From Limnohabitans sp. 103DPR2 (GTDB lineage Bacteria; Pseudomonadota; Gammaproteobacteria; Burkholderiales; Burkholderiaceae_C): a stretch of DNA of 64,000 bases. Position 1 is the stretch's first letter, and the number at the start of each line of letters is the position of its first letter. Below the pieces are notes generated by a model. The model was not told the DNA's origin. It saw only the letters and a list, made by a program, of their open reading frames with translations, and made no database searches. The position numbers were made by a program, and so were the translations under genes. Location of the stretch: positions 1,116,001 through 1,180,000 of the forward strand of contig NZ_CP011834.1 of NCBI RefSeq assembly GCF_001412575.1. Direction: 5' to 3'. Positions 3,289 to 38,322 of this stretch are shown piece by piece.

Positions 3289-5608
3289 ATGCGTCGGGTG
3301 CGCTTTGACCGCGAGCTCGGTGCGTGATGCGCTCAGCATTCAATACAGCAGGTGTGCGCTTCAAATTGCGCAGCACAGTTTCCAAATGGCTCAAGTCGCG
3401 CACTGAAATCACAAAAGTGTTTTCGGCTGCATCTTGCGCACTGGCTTGTCCCATTTCAACATGAATGATGTCGACCTCGGAGTTGGCCAATGTGCCTGCC
3501 ACCCGCGCCAATACACCCTTGGTGTTGACCACGGTGACGCTGATGCTGGTTTCGAAATTGCGCAAGGGCTCGTCTGACCACTCAACACCAATGAAGCGTT
3601 CGCTGTCTTTCTGTTGAAGTTTTTGGCCCACACTGCAATCGGCTGTGTGCACCGCCAAACCTTCACCGCGGCCCAGGTAGCCAATGATTTTGTCGCCAGG
3701 CAAGGGGTGGCAGCAGCGCGCATAAACCACCGAGGCGTTTTCGGTGCCGTCGAGCATGATGGCACCTTGAGACACGGTCTCGTGCGCCATGAAGCGCTCA
3801 CGCGTCATCAATAATGGATCGGGCTTTTCGCCCATTTCGGACAGCAAGGCCGCCATGCGTTTGGCCACAATGCTGGCAATGCGTTTGCCCAAGCCCACAT
3901 CGACCAACAAATCGCTGCGGTTTTTGTTGCCGGTGAAGCGCAACAATTTTTCCCACAAGCCTTGATAGCGAGACGGATCGTCTGGCATCTTCTCAATGCC
4001 TTCTGCACGCAAAGCTTGAGTGAGAAGTTTGAGACCCAAGTCCATGGACTCGCTGTTGGCCATGGTTTTAAGGTGATGGCGAATTCGTGAGCGCGCACGG
4101 CCAGTGCGCACAAAGCCAAGCCACGATGGATTGGGCGAGGACACAGGGGCCGTCATCACCTCAACGACGTCACCGTTTTTCAACTCAGTGCGCAAGGGCA
4201 CTTGTTGGTTGTTGATCTTGGCGGCGACCAAGTGGTCACCGATATTGCTGTGGATCATGTACGCAAAATCAACCACAGTGGCGCCACGCGGCAAGGACAT
4301 GATTTGGCTCTTGGGCGTGAACACGTAAACAGCATCTGGGAACAAGTCCACTTTGACGTGATCCCAAAACTCGGAGGCATCGCGTGTTTCTTTTTGGATG
4401 TCCAGCAGTGACTGCAGCCACTGCGTGCCCAAGCGTTCAGATGCACCGTCGTTAGAGCCTTTGTCTTTGTAGAGCCAATGCGCAGCAACACCCGATTCGG
4501 CCACCACGTTCATGGCTTCTGTGCGCATTTGAAATTCAACGTTGACACCCGAGGGGCCCACCAAGGTGGTGTGCAAAGACTGATAACCGTTGACTTTGCC
4601 AATGGCGATGTGATCTTTGAATCGGCCAGGCACGGGCTTGTACATTTGGTGCAAGATGCCCAAGGCAGTGTAGCAATCAATGACCGAAGGCACGATCAAG
4701 CGAAAGCCATAAATGTCGGTCACTTGTGCAAAGCTAAGGTGCTTGCCATCCATTTTTTTGTAAATGGAATACAGCGTTTTTTCTCGTCCTGAAATTTGAA
4801 CGTCCATGCCTGCTTGAGAAAACGTGGACTCGAGCTCGCCTTGAACTTTTTGAATCAGGTCGCGCCGGCGGTTGCGTGCTTTGGCAACGGCTTTGGCCAA
4901 GACGTTGTAGCGCCAAGGCATTGAGTACCGGAACGACAAATCTTGAAGTTCACGATAGGTTTGGTTCAGGCCCAAGCGGTGCGCAATCGGCGCATAAATT
5001 TCCAAAGTTTCAGAAGATATGCGACCCCACTTTTCGCGCGGCATGTCGGACATGGTGCGCATGTTGTGCGTGCGATCGGCCAGCTTGATGAGGATGACAC
5101 GGACATCGCGCGCCATGGCCAGCAGCATTTTTCGGAAGGACTCAGCCTGGTTTTCCTCGCGGGTGTTGAACTCCAGCTTGTCCAACTTGGTCAGCCCGTC
5201 CACCAATTCGGCCACGGAGGAACCAAATTTTTCAATCAGATCGGCTTTGGTGACGCCGCAGTCTTCCATCACGTCGTGCATCAGCGCTGCCATCAAGGCT
5301 TGCGCATCGAGTTTCCACTCGGTGCACTGCGTGGCCACTGCAATAGGGTGCGTGATGTAGGGCTCGCCGTTTTTGCGCAGTTGGCCTAAATGTGCTTCGT
5401 CGGCAAACCGATAGGCTTTTCGGACCAGTTCAATGTCGGCAGCTGACAGGTAGCCTAGCTGGGCCACCAAGGCTGCAAAACTTGCGGCCGCCGCGTTGGC
5501 TGCGCTGGCGGAGGGCATGCCCGCTTGAATGTTGTGTGCGTTGTCGCGCTTTCCGGGTATTGAAGTACTACCGGAACTGTTAAAAATAGAAGAAAAAGCT
5601 GCGCGCAT
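3287..5608 (-). CDS. spoT: Bifunctional (p)ppGpp synthetase/hydrolase (SpoT/Rsh)
   Basis: A 773-residue RelA/SpoT homologue that makes and degrades the alarmone (p)ppGpp in the cytoplasm. The N-terminal HD hydrolase domain keeps the metal-binding motif HDVMED (111-116). The synthetase domain has GRFKDH (about 328-333), the RXKD-type motif of bifunctional enzymes rather than the EXDD of RelA, and GYQSLHT (341-347). TGS (about 425-490) and a C-terminal ACT domain (about 690-765) follow. Both activities therefore look intact. The gene follows yicC-gmk-rpoZ on the same strand, the usual betaproteobacterial order, but a terminator-like hairpin separates it from rpoZ. The N-terminal ~35 residues before the conserved region are low complexity, so the exact start is uncertain. 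Confidence 0.95.
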   Translation of the reverse strand: MRAAFSSIFNSSGSTSIPGKRDNAHNIQAGMPSASAANAAAASFAALVAQLGYLSAADIELVRKAYRFADEAHLGQLRKNGEPYITHPIAVATQCTEWKLDAQALMAALMHDVMEDCGVTKADLIEKFGSSVAELVDGLTKLDKLEFNTREENQAESFRKMLLAMARDVRVILIKLADRTHNMRTMSDMPREKWGRISSETLEIYAPIAHRLGLNQTYRELQDLSFRYSMPWRYNVLAKAVAKARNRRRDLIQKVQGELESTFSQAGMDVQISGREKTLYSIYKKMDGKHLSFAQVTDIYGFRLIVPSVIDCYTALGILHQMYKPVPGRFKDHIAIGKVNGYQSLHTTLVGPSGVNVEFQMRTEAMNVVAESGVAAHWLYKDKGSNDGASERLGTQWLQSLLDIQKETRDASEFWDHVKVDLFPDAVYVFTPKSQIMSLPRGATVVDFAYMIHSNIGDHLVAAKINNQQVPLRTELKNGDVVEVMTAPVSSPNPSWLGFVRTGRARSRIRHHLKTMANSESMDLGLKLLTQALRAEGIEKMPDDPSRYQGLWEKLLRFTGNKNRSDLLVDVGLGKRIASIVAKRMAALLSEMGEKPDPLLMTRERFMAHETVSQGAIMLDGTENASVVYARCCHPLPGDKIIGYLGRGEGLAVHTADCSVGQKLQQKDSERFIGVEWSDEPLRNFETSISVTVVNTKGVLARVAGTLANSEVDIIHVEMGQASAQDAAENTFVISVRDLSHLETVLRNLKRTPAVLNAERITHRARGQSAPDA

Positions 5609-5685
5609 GGCTCAAATGTAACGCGAGAGGGCCGTCTTCAGAAAGCCTGAGGACTTGCCCTCACAAATTTGCGAATTTCAGGCGT

Positions 5686-5717
5686 GAAAAAGCCCCAGGT
5701 TTTGAAACTTTGGGGCT
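5686..5717 (-). terminator. Rho-independent terminator between rpoZ and spoT/rsh
   Basis: Read on the minus strand, AGCCCCA and TGGGGCT pair around a 13-base A/T-rich loop and are followed by five T residues. It lies after the rpoZ stop, so rpoZ-to-rsh readthrough is likely only partial. Confidence 0.75.
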
Positions 5718-5756
5718 GATGGTGCCAAACCAGAACGGTTTGGCTGGGTGTAGAAA

Positions 5757-5957
5757 TTAGTTTACTTTTTTGAGCATTTCCAAACCAACTTTGCCGGCTG
5801 CAATTTCGCGCAGGGCCGTGACGCCTGGCTTGTTTTTGCTCTCGACGCGGGGGGTGTGGCCTTGGCTCAGCATGCGAGCACGGTAAGTGGCCGCCAATAC
5901 CAATTGGAAACGGTTAGGGATCTGTTCCAAGCAATCTTCAACAGTGATGCGGGCCAT
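5757..5957 (-). CDS. rpoZ: RNA polymerase omega subunit
   Basis: A 66-residue protein beginning [20 protein letters not shown], the classic omega N-terminus. It then has ATYRARML and a short lysine-ending tail. Omega binds the beta-prime subunit and helps RNA polymerase assembly, and in other proteobacteria it forms part of a ppGpp site. It lies 20 bases downstream of gmk and upstream of the (p)ppGpp enzyme gene. Length is normal for betaproteobacteria. Confidence 0.97.
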
Positions 5958-5977
5958 GACGGTCTCCGGTAAGTAAT

Positions 5978-6598
5978 TCAGGTGATATGGAGGGATTCGA
6001 AAGTTTCGGCACGGGCCCGGCGCTGGGCAATGTACTTGAGGCGCTGGGCGTGCACGATGGCCTTGAGGTCAAACAGGGCGCGATCGAAAACTTCGTTGAT
6101 TATAACGAAATCAAATTCTTTGACCTGGGCCAGCTCAATGGCCGCATTTTGCAGGCGCAATTCGATGGTTTCCGTGCTGTCCTCGCCTCGGCGCTCCAGG
6201 CGGCTGCGCAATTCTTCCCAGCTGGGGGGCAGAATGAAGATGAGGATGGCATTGGCGTACATCTTTTGGATTTGGATGGCGCCTTGGTAGTCAATCTCCA
6301 AAATGACGTCGGAGCCTTGTGCCATGCGCTCTTCCAGCATTTTCTTGGAGGTGCCATAGCGGTGGCTGTGCACGTTGGCCCATTCCACAAAGGCGTCGGC
6401 GGCCACCATGGCATCAAACTCTTGCTGAGAGACAAAAAAGTACTCTCGGCCGTGCTTTTCTTGGCCTCTTGGCGCGCGGGTGGTGTGCGACACCGAGGGC
6501 AAGACGCGGGTGTCAAGCTCCATCAGGGCCTTGACCAGGCTGGACTTGCCCGCACCACTGGGGGCAGCTACGACGTAGAGGTTTCCAGGATATTCCAT
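5978..6598 (-). CDS. gmk: Guanylate kinase
   Basis: A 206-residue enzyme that phosphorylates GMP to GDP with ATP. The P-loop [10 protein letters not shown] lies near the N-terminus (about residues 11-20). GMP-binding residues follow in [20 protein letters not shown], and the lid region shows [17 protein letters not shown]. The start at 6598 ([10 protein letters not shown]) matches the family N-terminus. A longer in-frame reading would run into the upstream yicC gene and adds non-conserved sequence. No clear Shine-Dalgarno is visible, suggesting coupling to yicC, whose stop is 19 bases away. Confidence 0.95.
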
Positions 6599-6617
6599 GG
6601 CAAGGAGTGTAGTCAAC

Positions 6618-7535
6618 TTATTCGATGTTTTGCACCTGCTCACGCATTTGCTCAATCAAGACTTTCATGTCGACGGAGATTTTGGTGAGCTCGAGGGCCG
6701 CCGACTTGGAGCCCAAGGTGTTGGCTTCGCGGTGGAGTTCTTGGATGAGGAAATCAAGGCGTTTGCCAATGTCGCCGCCTTTTTTGACGAGGCGGCTGAT
6801 TTCGTCCAAGTGGGATGCCAGTCGGGTGAGCTCCTCGGCCACATCGATGCGAATGGCAAAAGCCGTGGCTTCCGTCAAAGCGCGGTCTTTGGCAACGTCG
6901 GACGACACATTGCCATCCGACAAAGCCATGGCCTCGTTCCAGCGGTCAATGAAACGCTGGCGCTGTTGCTCAACCAATTGTGGCAACAGGGGCGCTGCTT
7001 GTTCTGCCAGCGTGCGCAGTTGGCCAATGCGGTCTTGCAGCATCTCAGCCAAGCGGGCGCCTTCACGGGCGCGGGCATCTTTGAGGGCTTTGACCGCTTG
7101 TGTGGCCAAAGGCATGAGGTCGGCGTCTTGAAGACCCGCACCTGATTTTTCGTGCGAGGCCAACTTGATGACATCGGAAACACTCAGGTCGCGCGCTTTG
7201 GGCAGCCAGCTTTGAATTTTGTTTTGCAGACCCACCAGTTTTTGCAAGGTGCCAATGGAGGGGTCGGCCAGGTCATTGTCTTGGGTGCTGTGATAGACCG
7301 CACGCACTTCCACTTTGCCGCGCTTGATGTGTTGTGTGATGTGCTCACGCAAAGCCGGTTCGGTATGACGCAGCTCGTCGGGCAGTCGAAAGCTGAGGTC
7401 TAGAAAGCGGCTGTTCACGGAACGTATCTCAAGACCGAAACGCACAGCTGCCGTGGCCGCTGTGTCGGTGCCGCTCTCTGAAGCGGGCGTGCTGGATTGC
7501 ACGCTGGCGTATCCGGTCATACTGTAAACTGGCAT
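6618..7535 (-). CDS. yicC: YicC family endoribonuclease
   Basis: A 305-residue protein with the family opening SMTGYAS at residues 5-11 and the conserved C-terminal block [27 protein letters not shown], followed by [17 protein letters not shown]. YicC-like proteins have been described as RNA endonucleases acting on small RNAs in E. coli. That role is taken from the family, not seen here. It heads the yicC-gmk-rpoZ group. A shorter start at the internal Met6 would match the E. coli N-terminus. Confidence 0.92.
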
Positions 7536-7652
7536 GAATTCTTTCTAGGATGCGGCAGACAAAGGGCTGCGGTTCAGTCGGCGATTATCTCAAACTAATC
7601 TTGAATGTCGATCTAACGCGTTCATTCAAACATTCAACCAGCGATCACATCC

Positions 7653-8414
7653 ATGACCACTCTCAATTCTTCCAACTTTCAACGCGCCCATGATCGCAAG
7701 CAAGATCAATTGCGCAAGGTCCAAATCACGCGGGGCTACACCGTTCATGCCGAAGGCTCTGTGTTGATCGAATTTGGCGACACACGCGTGTTGTGCACGG
7801 CTTCGGTTGAAGAAAAAGTACCAGGTCACAAAAAAGGCAGTGGTGAAGGTTGGGTGACGGCTGAATACGGCATGTTGCCGCGCGCCACACACACACGCGG
7901 TGACCGCGAAGCAGCACGCGGTAAACAAAGTGGCCGCACACAAGAAATTCAACGCCTCATTGGCCGTTCCATGCGCGCCGTGTTTGATCTGAAAAAACTG
8001 GGTGAGCGCACCATCCATTTGGATTGCGATGTACTGCAAGCCGATGGCGGCACTCGCACAGCCAGTATCACGGGTGCGTTTGTGGCCGCCCAAGACGCCG
8101 TCGATTGGCTCATGCACCAAGGCAAGCTCACAGAGTCTCCCATCATTGATTCGGTCGCGGCCATTTCGGTGGGCTTGAAAGACGGCACACCTTTGCTGGA
8201 TTTGGATTACACCGAAGACTCATCATGCGATACCGACATGAACGTGGTCATGACCGGTGCTGGCAACTTTGTAGAAGTGCAGGGCACCGCCGAAGGTGTG
8301 GCCTTTACACGCAAAGAAATGGACAGCTTGTTGGCCCTGGCTGAGAAGGGCATTGCCGAGTTGGTGCAATTGCAAAAGCAATCACGTCAAACACACGTTC
8401 ACGCAGGCGCTTGA
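7653..8414 (+). CDS. rph: Ribonuclease PH
   Basis: A 253-residue phosphorolytic 3'-5' exoribonuclease that trims tRNA 3' ends and releases nucleoside diphosphates. The family signature [20 protein letters not shown] is near the N-terminus. The catalytic and phosphate-binding region [35 protein letters not shown] is intact, including the terminal [11 protein letters not shown] motif, so this is not a truncated rph as in E. coli K-12. It starts a plus-strand rph-rdgB-hemW run, with rdgB 4 bases downstream. Confidence 0.96.
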
Positions 8415-8418
8415 TGTC

Positions 8419-9021
8419 ATGAAAATGGTTTTGGCTTCCAACAACGCAGGCAAATTGAACGAACTGCAAAGCATGTTCAGCGTGCTGAATGTGCAGTTGG
8501 TGCGTCAGTCTGAGTTGAACATTTCGGAAGCGCCAGAGCCTTACAAAACCTTTGTTGAAAATGCCTTGACCAAAGCACGCCATGCCTCTGCACAAAGTGG
8601 TCTGCCGGCTGTGGCAGACGATGCAGGTTTGTGCATTGATGCATTTGGTGGCTTGCCAGGTGTAGACACCGCTTACTACTGCACGCAGTTTGGTTATGAG
8701 AAATCGGATGCCAACAACGTGCGCGCTGTAATTGAGCAAATGGCGCAGGTCGATAACCGCCGTGCAGCCATGGTGAGCACCCTGGTCGCACTGCGCAGTG
8801 CCGAAGATCCTGAGCCTTTGATTGCAGTGGGGCGGGTGGTGGTTGAGATTGCGCGCGAACCCGTCGGTACCAATGGCTTTGGCTTTGATCCTATTTTGTG
8901 GTTGCCAGAGTTTGGCCAAACGTTTGCACAGTTGCCTGAAGAAGTGAAGAATGCCAACAGCCATCGGGGCCGCTCGTCACAGGCCATGGTGGCATTGATG
9001 CGTGAACGCTGGGGCCTCTAA
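8419..9021 (+). CDS. rdgB: XTP/dITP diphosphatase (RdgB/HAM1)
   Basis: A 200-residue housecleaning pyrophosphatase that hydrolyses dITP, XTP and dXTP to the monophosphates. It begins MKMVLASNNAGKLNEL, the SxNxxK nucleotide-binding signature. ADDAGLCIDAFGGLPGVDTAYY gives the metal-binding acidic pair, and NGFGFDPILWLPEFGQTFAQL the purine-binding loop. The SHRGRS motif is at the C-terminus. The start at 8419 fits the family and lies 4 bases after the rph stop. A longer upstream reading overlaps rph in another frame and is not credible. Confidence 0.96.
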   Translation: MKMVLASNNAGKLNELQSMFSVLNVQLVRQSELNISEAPEPYKTFVENALTKARHASAQSGLPAVADDAGLCIDAFGGLPGVDTAYYCTQFGYEKSDANNVRAVIEQMAQVDNRRAAMVSTLVALRSAEDPEPLIAVGRVVVEIAREPVGTNGFGFDPILWLPEFGQTFAQLPEEVKNANSHRGRSSQAMVALMRERWGL

Positions 9022-33221: not shown

Positions 33222-34847
33222 TCAGGTGGGTGGCGCTTCTTGACGGTTGATCAAGCGCCACAGTTGTTTATCGGAAGAGGTCAAGCGGTCAGGCTTGTCC
33301 AAGGTTTCGTTGAGTTGTTCTTGGTCGGCCAGCAAATTCAGTTGCCTGATTTGACCCAGCAGATATTTGAAGTGCTCAATGGTGTGTTCGGGATTCGATG
33401 CTATTTTATGCAAAGGCAAGATCGACACGTCGTCCATCAACTCACGCTCTTTTTTAGCTTTATCGACCAAGCGCCGCAAATCGTCATCGGTCAGGTGAAG
33501 GCGTTTGCTTTCTGTTTTGATAAAGTGTGCTTCATCATCGTCAATGACGCCGTCTGCCAGCATTTCGTAGATGGTGTTGACCAAGGCTTCGCGATCGGAT
33601 TTCAGTTGGTCGGCAAACGCTGCAGACAACAAGGCAGCAGGGATGGCAAAAATACCGATGCCAATCAAGGCCAAAACGATGGTCATGGCGCGACCAGCTG
33701 GTGTGATGGGGGAAATGTCACCATAACCCACCGATGCCAAAGTCACAACAGCCCAGTAAATAGATTGAGGAATGTTTTCAAACTTATCAGGCTGAGCCTC
33801 GTGTTCAAACAAATAACCTAAGCTGGCGGTCATCACCACCAGCAGCAACATGATGAAGGCTGAAGCTGCCATGACAGGCCATTCACGTGCAATCACTTTG
33901 GAGAGCGATTGCGTTGCACCTGTGTATCTCGTCAATTTGAGCAAGCGCAGCAAACGGAATACCCGCATGAAGCGCAAGTCAAACAAGTGATGCAAAAAGA
34001 CTTCTAGGAAGAAGGGGGCGATGGCCAACAGGTCAATGACAGAGGAGGTCGACTTGGCCAGCTTCAGTCGGCCAGTAATGGCTTTTTGATAGCCCGGTTC
34101 TTCCACACAACAATACAAGCGCAGGCAGTATTCGAGCGTGAAGACACTGACCGCAATGGCATCCAGAATCAGAAATTCAAGATTCAACAAATAGTGAATG
34201 CTTTGAACTGACTCCAACACCACAGCGATGACCGAAATCACCACCCAAATGACAATGAAGGTGTCGAACATGTGGTGAAGTTCGCCACCGTACTCGCTGG
34301 GGAAAACCAAGGCGTGTACTTTTTGGCGGAAGGTTCTGCCTTTGTTGATCGCGACAAATTCTTTCACAGCCGGAATCAAAACTCGGAAGAGTTTCAAAAT
34401 ACGCAGCAAACGCAAGAACCGTAAGAAGCGCAAATCAATCGAGATGAAGGCTTGCAAAAAGAAAGGCAAGATGGCAATCAGGTCAATCACCGCGAAGGGA
34501 CTGCTGACATATCGCAAGCGTGAGAAACGGTGTTTTTTAAATTCGTCGTCTTCTGGTGCTAAATAAAGTCGCAGGACGTATTCGATGGAAAAGATGATGA
34601 CGGAAGCCACATCGAAGTAATGAAACCAAATTTGATTGGGTTCATAAACGGCAGGCAGATGCTCGAACACCAATGCAAACAAGTTGGCTACGATCAGTAA
34701 GCCGATCCAATGCTCAATGGTCTTGTGATAGTTGCCCTCAATGTGAGGGTCTAAGAGCCATGCGTATAGCCATTTGCGGAATGGCAGGTCGCTCGAAATC
34801 TCTGCTTCGTGAGACAGCAGTTGGGCTTCAATGTTTTTGGTTGCCAT
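33222..34847 (-). CDS. Tandem voltage-sensor ion channel: two VSDs and one K+-type pore
   Basis: A 541-residue membrane protein with two complete voltage-sensor domains followed by one pore. VSD1: S1 ~44-62, S2 ~74-97, S3 ~117-135, S4 ~138-158 with positive charges at 140, 143, 146, 149, 152 and 155. VSD2: S1 ~192-213, S2 ~222-246, S3 ~268-287, S4 ~291-308 with charges at 292, 295, 298, 301, 304 and 307. Pore: S5 ~323-347, a K+ selectivity filter SVGYGD at 372-377 and S6 ~384-412. The ~130-residue cytoplasmic tail has an acidic ADGVIDDDE stretch (431-439) that resembles a TerB-like or Ca2+-loop segment. Known bacterial Kv channels have one VSD per pore, so this architecture is unusual. Function beyond a voltage-gated K+ channel is inference. 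Confidence 0.88.
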   Translation of the reverse strand: MATKNIEAQLLSHEAEISSDLPFRKWLYAWLLDPHIEGNYHKTIEHWIGLLIVANLFALVFEHLPAVYEPNQIWFHYFDVASVIIFSIEYVLRLYLAPEDDEFKKHRFSRLRYVSSPFAVIDLIAILPFFLQAFISIDLRFLRFLRLLRILKLFRVLIPAVKEFVAINKGRTFRQKVHALVFPSEYGGELHHMFDTFIVIWVVISVIAVVLESVQSIHYLLNLEFLILDAIAVSVFTLEYCLRLYCCVEEPGYQKAITGRLKLAKSTSSVIDLLAIAPFFLEVFLHHLFDLRFMRVFRLLRLLKLTRYTGATQSLSKVIAREWPVMAASAFIMLLLVVMTASLGYLFEHEAQPDKFENIPQSIYWAVVTLASVGYGDISPITPAGRAMTIVLALIGIGIFAIPAALLSAAFADQLKSDREALVNTIYEMLADGVIDDDEAHFIKTESKRLHLTDDDLRRLVDKAKKERELMDDVSILPLHKIASNPEHTIEHFKYLLGQIRQLNLLADQEQLNETLDKPDRLTSSDKQLWRLINRQEAPPT

Positions 34848-34858
34848 GTTGAAACCCC

Positions 34859-35428
34859 TTAAAACTCAAACTCATCAACTTTGATGGGATAGCCACCTTT
34901 GTCGCAAACTGTGACTTTCAGTGCGATTTTGGTATCGATGGCATCCATTTCGACCAATTGGGACGCAACAGTTGGGATGGCAGAACCCGGCGGTGTAGGC
35001 ACGATCTTTTCTAAGATGATGTTGCCAACGGTTGTTTTGTCTTTGGGGTCGCATTTGGCAATGAAGGTCAAGGGCTCGCCTGTAAAAGCGTTGGTCAAGC
35101 CTTTCAGTTCTTTGACATTCTCAAGGACGTCGTTGTAACAATCACCCCAACGTCTGCGTTCCATGGCGCTAGAGGCGCAACTTTCGATGGCAAAGTCTTC
35201 TTGCATGCGGGGTTCGCTGTTGTCCTTGAGCCATTTCACCCAAGCTTCGCCATTTTGTTTCGTGACTTCATTCTTGTTGCCTTCTTCATGGGACAACACA
35301 CCCACCCAGGCAACGCAAACCAAGGCGAAAGTTAGAAAAATCAGAAACAAAATGTCCCAAAAGTTCGGGTAACCCGAGACTGCGGGTGCCGGCTTGGCCT
35401 GATCTGTCGGCGCGTCTGTTTGGCTCAT
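34859..35428 (-). CDS. Membrane-anchored protein of unknown function, upstream of the channel
   Basis: A 189-residue protein with a short charged N-terminus, one membrane helix (about 24-46, FWDILFLIFLTFALVCVAWVGVL) and a ~140-residue soluble domain with several cysteines (CASS, GDCY, KCDP, TVCDK) that could form disulfides if periplasmic. I do not recognise a family. The start at 35428 has GGGAG 8 bases upstream. It ends 11 bases before the tandem-VSD channel gene, so the two are co-transcribed and it may be an accessory subunit. Confidence 0.65.
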   Translation of the reverse strand: MSQTDAPTDQAKPAPAVSGYPNFWDILFLIFLTFALVCVAWVGVLSHEEGNKNEVTKQNGEAWVKWLKDNSEPRMQEDFAIESCASSAMERRRWGDCYNDVLENVKELKGLTNAFTGEPLTFIAKCDPKDKTTVGNIILEKIVPTPPGSAIPTVASQLVEMDAIDTKIALKVTVCDKGGYPIKVDEFEF

Positions 35429-35565: not shown

Positions 35566-36333
35566 TTATTCGTTGTGTGAGCCGCGGTGGGCCCATCCGG
35601 TGGTGTGCTTCTCAATGTAACTAAAAAGCTCGTACATCACCATGGCCATGGCGCCCACCACCACCAAACCCGAGAAGGCCAAGCCCATTTGCATGGCAGA
35701 ACCTGCTGAGATCAGTAGATACCCGATGCCTTCGTTGGCCGCTGTCATTTCGGAAACCGTGGTGCCCACAAAGGCCAATGTGATGGCCACCTTCAAGGAG
35801 CCATAGAAGTAAGGCATGGAGCGGGGCAGGCCTACTTTGACCAAGACGTCCCAACGTTTGGCGCCCAACACGCGGAGCACGTCTTCGAGTTCAGGCTCAA
35901 GAGTGGCCAAGCCGGTGGCGATGTTGACCATGATGGGGAAGAAGCTGATCAAGAAGGCTGTGAGGATGGCGGGACCAATGCCAATGCCAAACCAAACCAC
36001 CAAGATGGGCACGAAGGCTGCCTTGGGCAATGCATTGAAGGCGGTCATGAGCGGGTAGACCGCAGCATAGGCCAAACGCGAGCTGCCAATGACAAAGCCC
36101 AACAAGACGCCCACCACGATGGCAATGCCAAAGCCCGCCATGGTGACCCAATAGGTGCGCCATGCATGGGCGGCAATCACATCACGGAACTCGATGGTTT
36201 GCTGCGCAATGCGGTAGGGGCTGGGGAAAATGAATTCCGAGACGTTGAAGAAACTGCAGAGGCCTTGCCAAATGAGCAGCGTGAGCACCAACAAAATCCA
36301 AGGTGCAGATGTTTCGAGCGTTTTCTTGTTCAC
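35566..36333 (-). CDS. NitT/TauT-type ABC transporter permease
   Basis: A 255-residue permease of the SsuC/TauC family with about six membrane segments and the EAA-like loop LRVLGAKRWDVLVKVGLPRSMPYFYGSLKVAITLAFVGTTVSEM. Last gene of a binding protein-ATPase-permease operon transcribed away from the purine/allantoin genes. The gap to the ATPase gene is 11 bases. Substrate is discussed under the binding protein (37198-38232). Confidence 0.9.
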   Translation of the reverse strand: MNKKTLETSAPWILLVLTLLIWQGLCSFFNVSEFIFPSPYRIAQQTIEFRDVIAAHAWRTYWVTMAGFGIAIVVGVLLGFVIGSSRLAYAAVYPLMTAFNALPKAAFVPILVVWFGIGIGPAILTAFLISFFPIMVNIATGLATLEPELEDVLRVLGAKRWDVLVKVGLPRSMPYFYGSLKVAITLAFVGTTVSEMTAANEGIGYLLISAGSAMQMGLAFSGLVVVGAMAMVMYELFSYIEKHTTGWAHRGSHNE

Positions 36334-36344
36334 AAATCACCTGC

Positions 36345-37163
36345 TTATTGGTTGATGACCGCACCGGCTTTGCGAATGGCACCAATGTGGCCGCGCAAAT
36401 CGTGAACGATGCTGGTGAATTCAGGGGTGTACGTCACTTCTAAATCGCGTGGACGTGGCAAATCAATTTCTCGCTTGACCACAAAACGCCCTGGACTTTT
36501 GCTCATCACGTAAACGGTGTCAGCCAAGAAGACCGACTCGCGCAAATCGTGGGTGACCAAAATGACGTTGAATTTTTGTTCGGTCCACAGATCGCGCAAG
36601 ATGCACCACAGCTCTTCGCGTGTGAAGGCGTCGAGGGCGCCAAAGGGCTCGTCGAGCAGCAGCATCTTGGGCTCATGAATCAAAGCGCGGCAAATGCTGG
36701 CGCGTTGTTGCATGCCGCCCGACAGTTGCCAAGGAAACTTGTCTTCGTAACCCGCTAAGCCAACGGTTTGCAGCAACTTGCGAGCGCGCTCGACAAACTC
36801 TGGCTTGCGTTGTTTGAATTGCGAGCGATAAGGCTCCACAATTTCCAGAGGCAACAAGACGTTGTCGAGGGTGGTTCGCCAAGGCAACAAAGAAGGTGCC
36901 TGAAAAGCCATGCCGCTGATTTTCAAGGGGCCTGTGACGGGCTGGCCGTCCACCATGATTTGCCCCTTGCTGGGTTTTTTCAAACCCGTGGTGAGCTTCA
37001 TGAAGGTGGACTTGCCGCAGCCCGATGGACCCACAATGGCAATGAATTCGCCTTGTTTGACTTGCAAATTGATGTCTTCAACTGCAAAGTGATTTTGGGC
37101 CAACAACTCGTCGTTGTAGGCCAACCAAACATTTTGAAAATCAACGAAATTGGGAGTGCTCAA
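36345..37163 (-). CDS. NitT/TauT-type ABC transporter ATPase
   Basis: A 272-residue ATPase with Walker A GPSGCGKSTFMKL, Q-loop region GMAFQAPSLLPWRTTLDNVLLP (typical of TauB/SsuB/NrtD), signature LSGGMQQRASICRAL and Walker B MLLLDEPFGALD. Middle gene of the importer operon. Confidence 0.93.
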   Translation of the reverse strand: MSTPNFVDFQNVWLAYNDELLAQNHFAVEDINLQVKQGEFIAIVGPSGCGKSTFMKLTTGLKKPSKGQIMVDGQPVTGPLKISGMAFQAPSLLPWRTTLDNVLLPLEIVEPYRSQFKQRKPEFVERARKLLQTVGLAGYEDKFPWQLSGGMQQRASICRALIHEPKMLLLDEPFGALDAFTREELWCILRDLWTEQKFNVILVTHDLRESVFLADTVYVMSKSPGRFVVKREIDLPRPRDLEVTYTPEFTSIVHDLRGHIGAIRKAGAVINQ

Positions 37164-37197
37164 AACAGGCCGCCTTGTTCAATCAGGAAATCAGAAT

Positions 37198-38232
37198 TTA
37201 TTTCTTGGGCTTAGGCAAGATGTCGAGTTCTTTGGTGCTAGGCAAGAAAGAACCGTTCCAGACATCGTCTGGCTTGATGCGGGTTTTGGTATTGAAGGCA
37301 TCTGAAACTTGGGATGCCATCAAAGCCAAACGAGGGCCCTTGACTTGACCAAAGCCTTCTTCGCGCGCAGAGGGGCTGTTGATCACGGTGTCGATGGCCA
37401 ATTGCAAACGGCGAGTTTCCAATTCCACGTTGATGATGCCGTCACGTGCTTTGACATCCGCAATGGCGGCTGCAGGGTTGGCAATCACGTCTTTCGCACC
37501 TTTGGTGAAAGCAGACAGGAAGGCCTTCACAGCGGCTGGATTTTCTTTCATGATTTTGGGTGAGGCAATGATCACGTTGCCGTAGAGCTTCACGCCGAAA
37601 TCGGGGTATTGCATGACCACCACATCATCGGCCTTCACACCGCGTGCTTCAATGTTGAGCAAAGAGGTGAAGGTGAAGCCTGTGATGGCATCGACATCGC
37701 CGCGAACCAACATGGTTTCACGCAATGGGGGGTCCATGGCTGTCCATGCCACGTTGCCAATGTTGTTGGCTTTTTGGAAGATGGGGAATGCACGGCGTCC
37801 TGCATCAAACACAGGTGCGCCCAATTTCTTGCCAGCCAAATCGGCGGGTGTTTTGATGCCAGATTTTTTCAGCGCCATGACAGAAGCAGGCGTGTTGTTG
37901 TAGACCATCATGATGGCCACAGGCTTGTTGGGCACGTCGGGGTTGTTGGCGTGGAATTCCATCAGCGCGGCCAAGTCGGCAAAGCCAATGTCGTAGCTAC
38001 CAGAGGCCACACGTGTCACCGCACCGCCAGAACCGTTGCCTGCGTCAACTGTGACATCCAATTTCGCATCTTTGAAATAACCCTTGGCGACGGGTGTCAA
38101 GAAAAAGGCCGCAGGACCTTCGAAGCGCCAGTCCAATTGGAACTTGATGGGCGTTGTTTGAGCTTGGGCCAAGCCCAATGTGCAGGCAGCCAACAAGGCT
38201 GCAGTAGTTTTAAGCAAGAAACGTTTTTTCAT
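37198..38232 (-). CDS. NitT/TauT-type ABC transporter binding protein, probable ureide/purine ligand
   Basis: A 344-residue binding protein of the NMT1/THI5-like superfamily with a signal peptide ending near GLAQAQ. Blocks include IKFQLDWRFEGPAAFFLTPVAKGYFKDAKLDV, GSGGAVTRVASGSYDIGFAD and KPDDVWNGSFLPS. The start at 38232 has GGAG upstream. Its ligand cannot be read from sequence. The position downstream of the allantoin genes, and a GTATAC palindrome 91 bases upstream of its ATG, suggest a purine-derived ureide or related compound. Related proteins also bind pyrimidine precursors or sulfonates. Confidence 0.85.
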   Translation of the reverse strand: MKKRFLLKTTAALLAACTLGLAQAQTTPIKFQLDWRFEGPAAFFLTPVAKGYFKDAKLDVTVDAGNGSGGAVTRVASGSYDIGFADLAALMEFHANNPDVPNKPVAIMMVYNNTPASVMALKKSGIKTPADLAGKKLGAPVFDAGRRAFPIFQKANNIGNVAWTAMDPPLRETMLVRGDVDAITGFTFTSLLNIEARGVKADDVVVMQYPDFGVKLYGNVIIASPKIMKENPAAVKAFLSAFTKGAKDVIANPAAAIADVKARDGIINVELETRRLQLAIDTVINSPSAREEGFGQVKGPRLALMASQVSDAFNTKTRIKPDDVWNGSFLPSTKELDILPKPKK

Positions 38233-38322
38233 GAAAGCTCCAAAAGGGTATGACAAAAGATTGCAAAACAACAAGCAATATCAATGCCATTATGAGGGGG
38301 GTTCGAAGGGCGTTTGTGTTCC

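Follow-up and report, generated by a model that had tools for sequence, protein, structure and literature searches.

Voltage-gated potassium (Kv) channels, including the KCNQ (Kv7) and Kv4 families, combine in one chain an S1-S4 voltage-sensor domain (VSD) with regularly spaced S4 charges and a pore with a TVGYGD-type K+ filter, at a single VSD per pore, and work as homotetramers that pass a voltage-dependent K+ current. Two-pore channels (TPC) contain two VSDs per chain in the order VSD-pore-VSD-pore, lone-VSD proteins such as Hv1 and VSP have no pore, and the NavAb-type bacterial sodium channels, members of the same superfamily, join a single VSD to a pore with a TLESW-type filter. Here, we describe a gene of Limnohabitans sp. 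103DPR2, found in a window of 64,000 nucleotides (the whole stretch of DNA analysed; contig NZ_CP011834.1, positions 1,116,001 to 1,180,000), whose product carries two complete VSDs in series in front of one pore. The existence of this VSD1-VSD2-pore layout is as good as certain, and it is very likely, judging from the sequence, that the protein is a K+ channel. Its parts, in window coordinates, are as follows.

33222..34847, minus strand: double-VSD channel gene, 541 amino acids (aa) from an ATG start, supported by the open reading frame (ORF), Pfam and homologues of equal length and the same order
34374..34727, minus strand: VSD1 (S1-S4), residues 41-158, from profile alignment, PDB sequence matches, model and superposition
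34374..34436, minus strand: S4a, residues 138-158, with R140, R143, R146, R149, K152 and R155, from the homologue alignment
34287..34373, minus strand: linker, residues 159-187, in which the S4a helix runs on to 167 and is followed by a short helix (173-181) and then VSD2, from model secondary structure
33918..34286, minus strand: VSD2 (S1-S4), residues 188-310, from PDB matches, profile alignment, model and superposition
33918..33980, minus strand: S4b, residues 290-310, with R292, R295, R298, R301, K304 and R307, from the homologue alignment
33603..33917, minus strand: pore domain, residues 311-415 (S4-S5 linker, S5, filter, S6), from Ion_trans_2 (333-410) and PDB matches
33717..33734, minus strand: selectivity filter SVGYGD, residues 372-377 (S372-D377), from the sequence and homologue alignment
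33225..33602, minus strand: cytosolic C-terminal region, residues 416-541, mainly helical, from Pfam and model

Pfam recognises two Ion_trans (PF00520) stretches and one Ion_trans_2 match (333-410, E 9.8e-18), the latter lying behind both VSDs, which sets the protein apart from TPCs, as the presence of a pore sets it apart from Hv1 and VSP. In the C-terminal region, a Pfam match to TerB stays below the threshold (E 0.088). The order S1-S4, S1-S4, S5-filter-S6 had been claimed by a first-pass annotation made from the letters alone, together with the SVGYGD filter and the six positive residues, three positions apart, of each S4 helix (140-155 and 292-307), and all three claims hold; Shaker has the R-R-R-R-K-R order of charges as well. 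The two sensors of the protein share 33% identity (41/124, E 6e-18, BLASTP one against one), and in hhalign 113 columns of the two family profiles can be aligned with a probability of 99.9 (E 6e-33). Searched separately, as the first-pass annotation had advised for the N-terminal part, residues 1-150 find 31 PDB sequences at E 3.8e-5 to 0.0035, which comprise VSDs of Kv4 and KCNQ channels and a single Nav VSD. For the whole protein, KCNQ4 and further Kv channels give the best matches, mainly via residues 191-416, VSD2 and the pore aligning to KCNQ4 over 193-416 (E 1e-24), and each of the 60 matches listed, of 261, consists of one aligned stretch.

The AlphaFold2 model of the channel has a mean predicted local distance difference test (pLDDT) score of 77. 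It places helices at 41-62, 72-99, 117-134 and 139-167 in VSD1 and at 188-212, 215-249, 267-285 and 291-306 in VSD2, with pLDDT per ten-residue block of 82-92 in the former and 74-91 in the latter, the minimum (74-75) falling at S4b. Both predicted sensors superpose on solved Kv4.2/KCNQ1 VSDs, and residues 19-158 fit a solved Kv VSD at 2.3 Å over 129 residues, which upholds the S1-S4 bundle at 44-158 on which the first-pass annotation had staked its reading. The pore segment 349-382 scores below 50, and the pore assignment is therefore supported by the sequence and not by the model. Compared with Kv channels, the protein has the charged S1-S4 sensor twice and a K+-type filter, but two VSDs for its one pore, so that we class it as a variant and not as an ordinary Kv channel. 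It is Kv-type by sensor and filter and departs from Kv in its two sensors per pore. No tandem-VSD single-pore channel is described in the accessible parts of the literature searched, which includes the review PMC13095418 and lies mostly outside subscription journals and preprints; within that scope, the layout is undescribed, as the first-pass annotation had supposed.

The layout is not peculiar to one sequence and recurs in freshwater bacteria related to Limnohabitans. Among the 8000 candidates scored, at least 4429 homologues reach E <= 1e-10, and the 120 listed are 539-546 aa long, with 81-100% identity, 99-100% query coverage and the double-VSD order that the first-pass annotation had proposed to look for. 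This order is common to 103 ORFs (some genomes being counted twice via two collections), 64 of which have less than 90% identity. In these 64, 11 of the 12 S4 charge positions are R or K throughout, and position 140 is so in 62 and H in two. The S1 Glu (62 in VSD1, 212 in VSD2), the S2 Glu and Arg (89 and 93; 239 and 243) and the S3 Asp (122; 272) are invariant in 51 aligned proteins, as is Phe236 of VSD2, its VSD1 counterpart Phe86 being kept in at least 90%; in both sensors, we take these acids, Arg and Phe to be Kv charge-transfer-centre positions. The filter reads TL[AG]SVGYGD in 81/81 double-VSD ORFs of loci L047-L126. Against the 95%-identical L048, the ratio of non-synonymous to synonymous substitution rates (dN/dS) is 0.060 for VSD1, 0.028 for VSD2, 0.014 for the pore and 0.038 for the whole, dS being saturated in many other comparisons, and on this low value we conclude that VSD1 is under purifying selection.

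Full-length double-VSD genes were counted in samples that overlap. They occur in 14/60 relatives (own genome counted), 9/399 family genomes, 4/399 order genomes, 1/369 class genomes (the own genome) and 2/398 phylum genomes (the own genome and G1130). In the class sample, at an E limit of 1e-30, all matches outside the own genome start at residue 138 or later. At 1e-50, the double-VSD matches of the phylum sample are the own genome and G1130, of the same order, and the rest start at profile position 160 or later; for many genomes of these two samples, which have genomes in common, just three first-look candidates were scored. Among the sampled genomes, the layout thus appears confined to the window's own order, Burkholderiales to judge from contig titles. 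The best 80 of 208 confirmed places in a scan of named contigs are nearly all labelled Limnohabitans, Comamonadaceae, other Burkholderiales or beta-proteobacteria, other labels being Methylococcaceae (L083) and Alphaproteobacteria (L104), perhaps through binning error or transfer. Four one-contig genomes hold the gene (G000, the own genome; G139; G1130; G1155), and none of the 85 plasmid records with a match reaches 80% query coverage.

Several candidates for further layouts were rejected. Matches of ~2 kb in tblastn that suggested triple-VSD proteins run across neighbouring channel genes, with zero ORFs holding three VSDs. As for independent double-VSD proteins in other taxa, VSD profiles find one VSD in each of the longer ORFs L206-L210 and none in L211 or L212, and the match of L149 starts only at residue 189. 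Frame-broken copies of the double-VSD gene were seen at L042/L160 and L104 (two frames). One contig labelled Oxalobacteraceae (CANFLV010000007.1) has two double-VSD genes (L063, L064) ~41 kb apart, one with and one without the neighbouring gene described next.

Directly upstream of the channel gene lies a gene that we call nb, and this companion, usually encoded alongside, is a further difference from Kv, KCNQ and Kv4 channels.

34859..35428, minus strand: nb, single-pass membrane protein, 189 aa from ATG; the listed ORF starts at TTG 35449

The nb protein is confidently modelled as a helix (23-69) followed by a small alpha/beta domain, and has four near-invariant Cys (84, 97, 126, 175). Pfam searches with 50 aligned members gave nothing convincing (best E 0.007, Arch_flagellin, in one member), a search of PDB sequences yielded nothing below E 0.5, and PADLOC matched neither nb nor the channel. 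The predicted fold resembles type IV pilins only weakly in a comparison (VIA-align) restricted to Foldseek-ranked chains, in which a missing match is no sign of a new fold. By these sequence searches, nb is an undescribed single-pass protein family. It stands directly upstream of the double-VSD gene in 88/100 testable cases and was not detected in 12/100; of 54 chosen genomes, 25 have an intact double-VSD gene and all 25 also have nb, whereas the 26 that lack nb all lack a double-VSD match. Six neighbours in the window were tested, and among them nb alone is retained where the location of the double-VSD gene differs. Most likely, nb is an auxiliary subunit that binds the channel.

In a tree of VSDs, all VSD1s, from the two double-VSD types alike, fall into a single clade (100/99), and a second clade (99/96) comprises the VSD2s together with L041, L046 and L040, which are single-VSD relatives. 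For this tree, the second type was represented by L043 alone, the long row L109_s5581 was dropped, 11 of 20 double-VSD proteins were kept and nine more operon singles, from five chosen loci, were included. The link of VSD1 to operon single-VSD channels is weak (80/52), and tandem internal duplication as its source is not rejected (p-AU 0.42), so that VSD1 may stem from such a duplication or from another channel. The single-VSD L040 (the same as L159; G333, 5162-6586; 52% identity) nests among main-type VSD2s, and VSD1 has therefore probably been lost in it; upstream of it lies at most a barely matching nb-like frame. The own genome yields, in a whole-protein search, one other relative, a single-VSD paralogue of 391 aa (C1:2713194-2714231; L002), which is ~48% identical over residues 149-503 and retains a short stretch corresponding by alignment to the last part of S4a and to the linker. 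In the VSD tree, L041 and L046, which are related to this paralogue, fall with VSD2. The paralogue differs in lacking VSD1 and in having another upstream gene, the genome's one nb match sitting beside the double-VSD gene.

Taken together, we regard it as probable that the protein is a real subunit of a voltage-gated K+ channel and has its two complete VSDs in series, VSD1 being an extra sensor and nb a likely auxiliary subunit. Four subunits would form one K+ pore with eight sensors. VSD2 would be the ordinary pore-coupled Kv sensor, S4b leading into the S4-S5 linker and pore, and on depolarisation it would open the pore in the way of other Kv sensors. VSD1 would be a second intact sensor in front, its S4a extending as a long helix toward the start of VSD2. 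Because its charges and counter-charges are kept, VSD1 likely still moves with voltage. Its coupling to the pore is plausible: movement of VSD1, transmitted by the S4a-linker helix or by side contacts, could bias VSD2 or the pore and shift the steepness or threshold of opening, with nb usually attached.

The alternative that survives best, although an unlikely one, is that VSD1 is a structural or docking module anchoring nb or a partner protein, on a channel that acts as an ordinary four-sensor Kv. The fidelity of nb to the double-VSD gene across locations fits this, as do the lack of an own pore and S4-S5 linker in VSD1, its faster evolution than VSD2 and the existence of single-VSD relatives that share the C-terminal region in genomes without nb at E 1e-3 (G317, G333, G1035). 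A pure anchor, however, would have no need of six three-spaced S4 charges and S1-S3 counter-charges, and nb goes undetected in 12 of the 100 cases.

Other channel genes in the vicinity raise the question of mixed assembly. In the window, nb and the channel sit between an NMT1-type ATP-binding cassette (ABC) transporter (35566-38274) and ureD; of 74 testable loci, 31 have the same ABC permease within 3.5 kb upstream and 17 have ureD within 3 kb downstream, measured centre to centre, ureD being more distant in several loci with extra channel genes. Where at least 2.1 kb of downstream sequence is available, exactly two single-VSD channel genes directly follow the double-VSD gene in 19/59 loci, the 19 lying among L047-L126, the filter of the first ending GYGN in 17/19 and that of the second GWGN in 19/19. 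Mostly, these filters read TITSGYGN in the first gene and TIISGWGN in the second, which is one residue less than in TLASVGYGD, and have N in place of D (e.g. L098:9734-11610); they may confer altered selectivity or conduction. The double-VSD subunit could mix with these single-VSD subunits, with varying sensor number and selectivity, and the downstream pair would suit such a heteromer; we consider it improbable, however, since 40 of the 59 loci have no pair and the whole-protein search of the own genome gave just the one single-VSD paralogue.

It is highly improbable that VSD1 acts alone on a K+ channel, for instance as an Hv1-like proton or gating-pore pathway. A lone VSD can conduct protons, as in Hv1, but the invariant S1 acid E62 is equivalent in place to E212 of VSD2 and corresponds to a common Kv S1 Glu, all six S4 positions are R/K, and Hv1 is not among the 31 PDB sequences matching residues 1-150 (E <= 0.01), which is no proof of absence. 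Finally, a joining of two genes by assembly or recent frame fusion can be dismissed, for, although two loci (L042, L104) hold the gene in two frames and breaks thus occur in some records, the first-pass annotation's concern about an artefact is answered by one continuous ORF in all 103 cases, one-contig genomes included, and, where it could be calculated, by a low dN/dS in VSD1 and the linker.

Three genomes (G139, G242, G380) have another double-VSD gene, a diverged one, a few kb off (48-50% identity, spanning at most residues 22-516). In two of them, G242 and G380, the start of the diverged gene is overlapped by ATGA by a gene for a separate protein, a sodium channel of NavAb type (TLESWSD/TLESWAD). 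The two loci are L157 around 6174-8578, minus strand, and L158:10714-13187, plus strand; the G380 copy matches bacterial NavAb-type structures (best E 3e-72), and the G242 copy was recognised by likeness. In G139 (L156) and L109, the corresponding gene showed no sodium-channel gene immediately upstream of it. As a tentative idea, which we hold to be rather less probable than not, eight working sensors per pore, an own nb subunit family and the odd-filter and NavAb-type partners could amount to a bacterial electrical-excitability gene set in some freshwater Burkholderiales.

Kv theory assumes one sensor per pore subunit, and a natural two-sensor channel probes that assumption. It opens the questions of how a sensor couples without a direct S4-S5 link, whether a doubling of gating charge is feasible and in what way two voltage inputs are integrated by one pore, for which the own-genome paralogue and L040 are natural controls devoid of VSD1. 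Together with nb, the ATGA-overlapping sodium-channel gene makes bacterial electrical signalling testable in defined genes.
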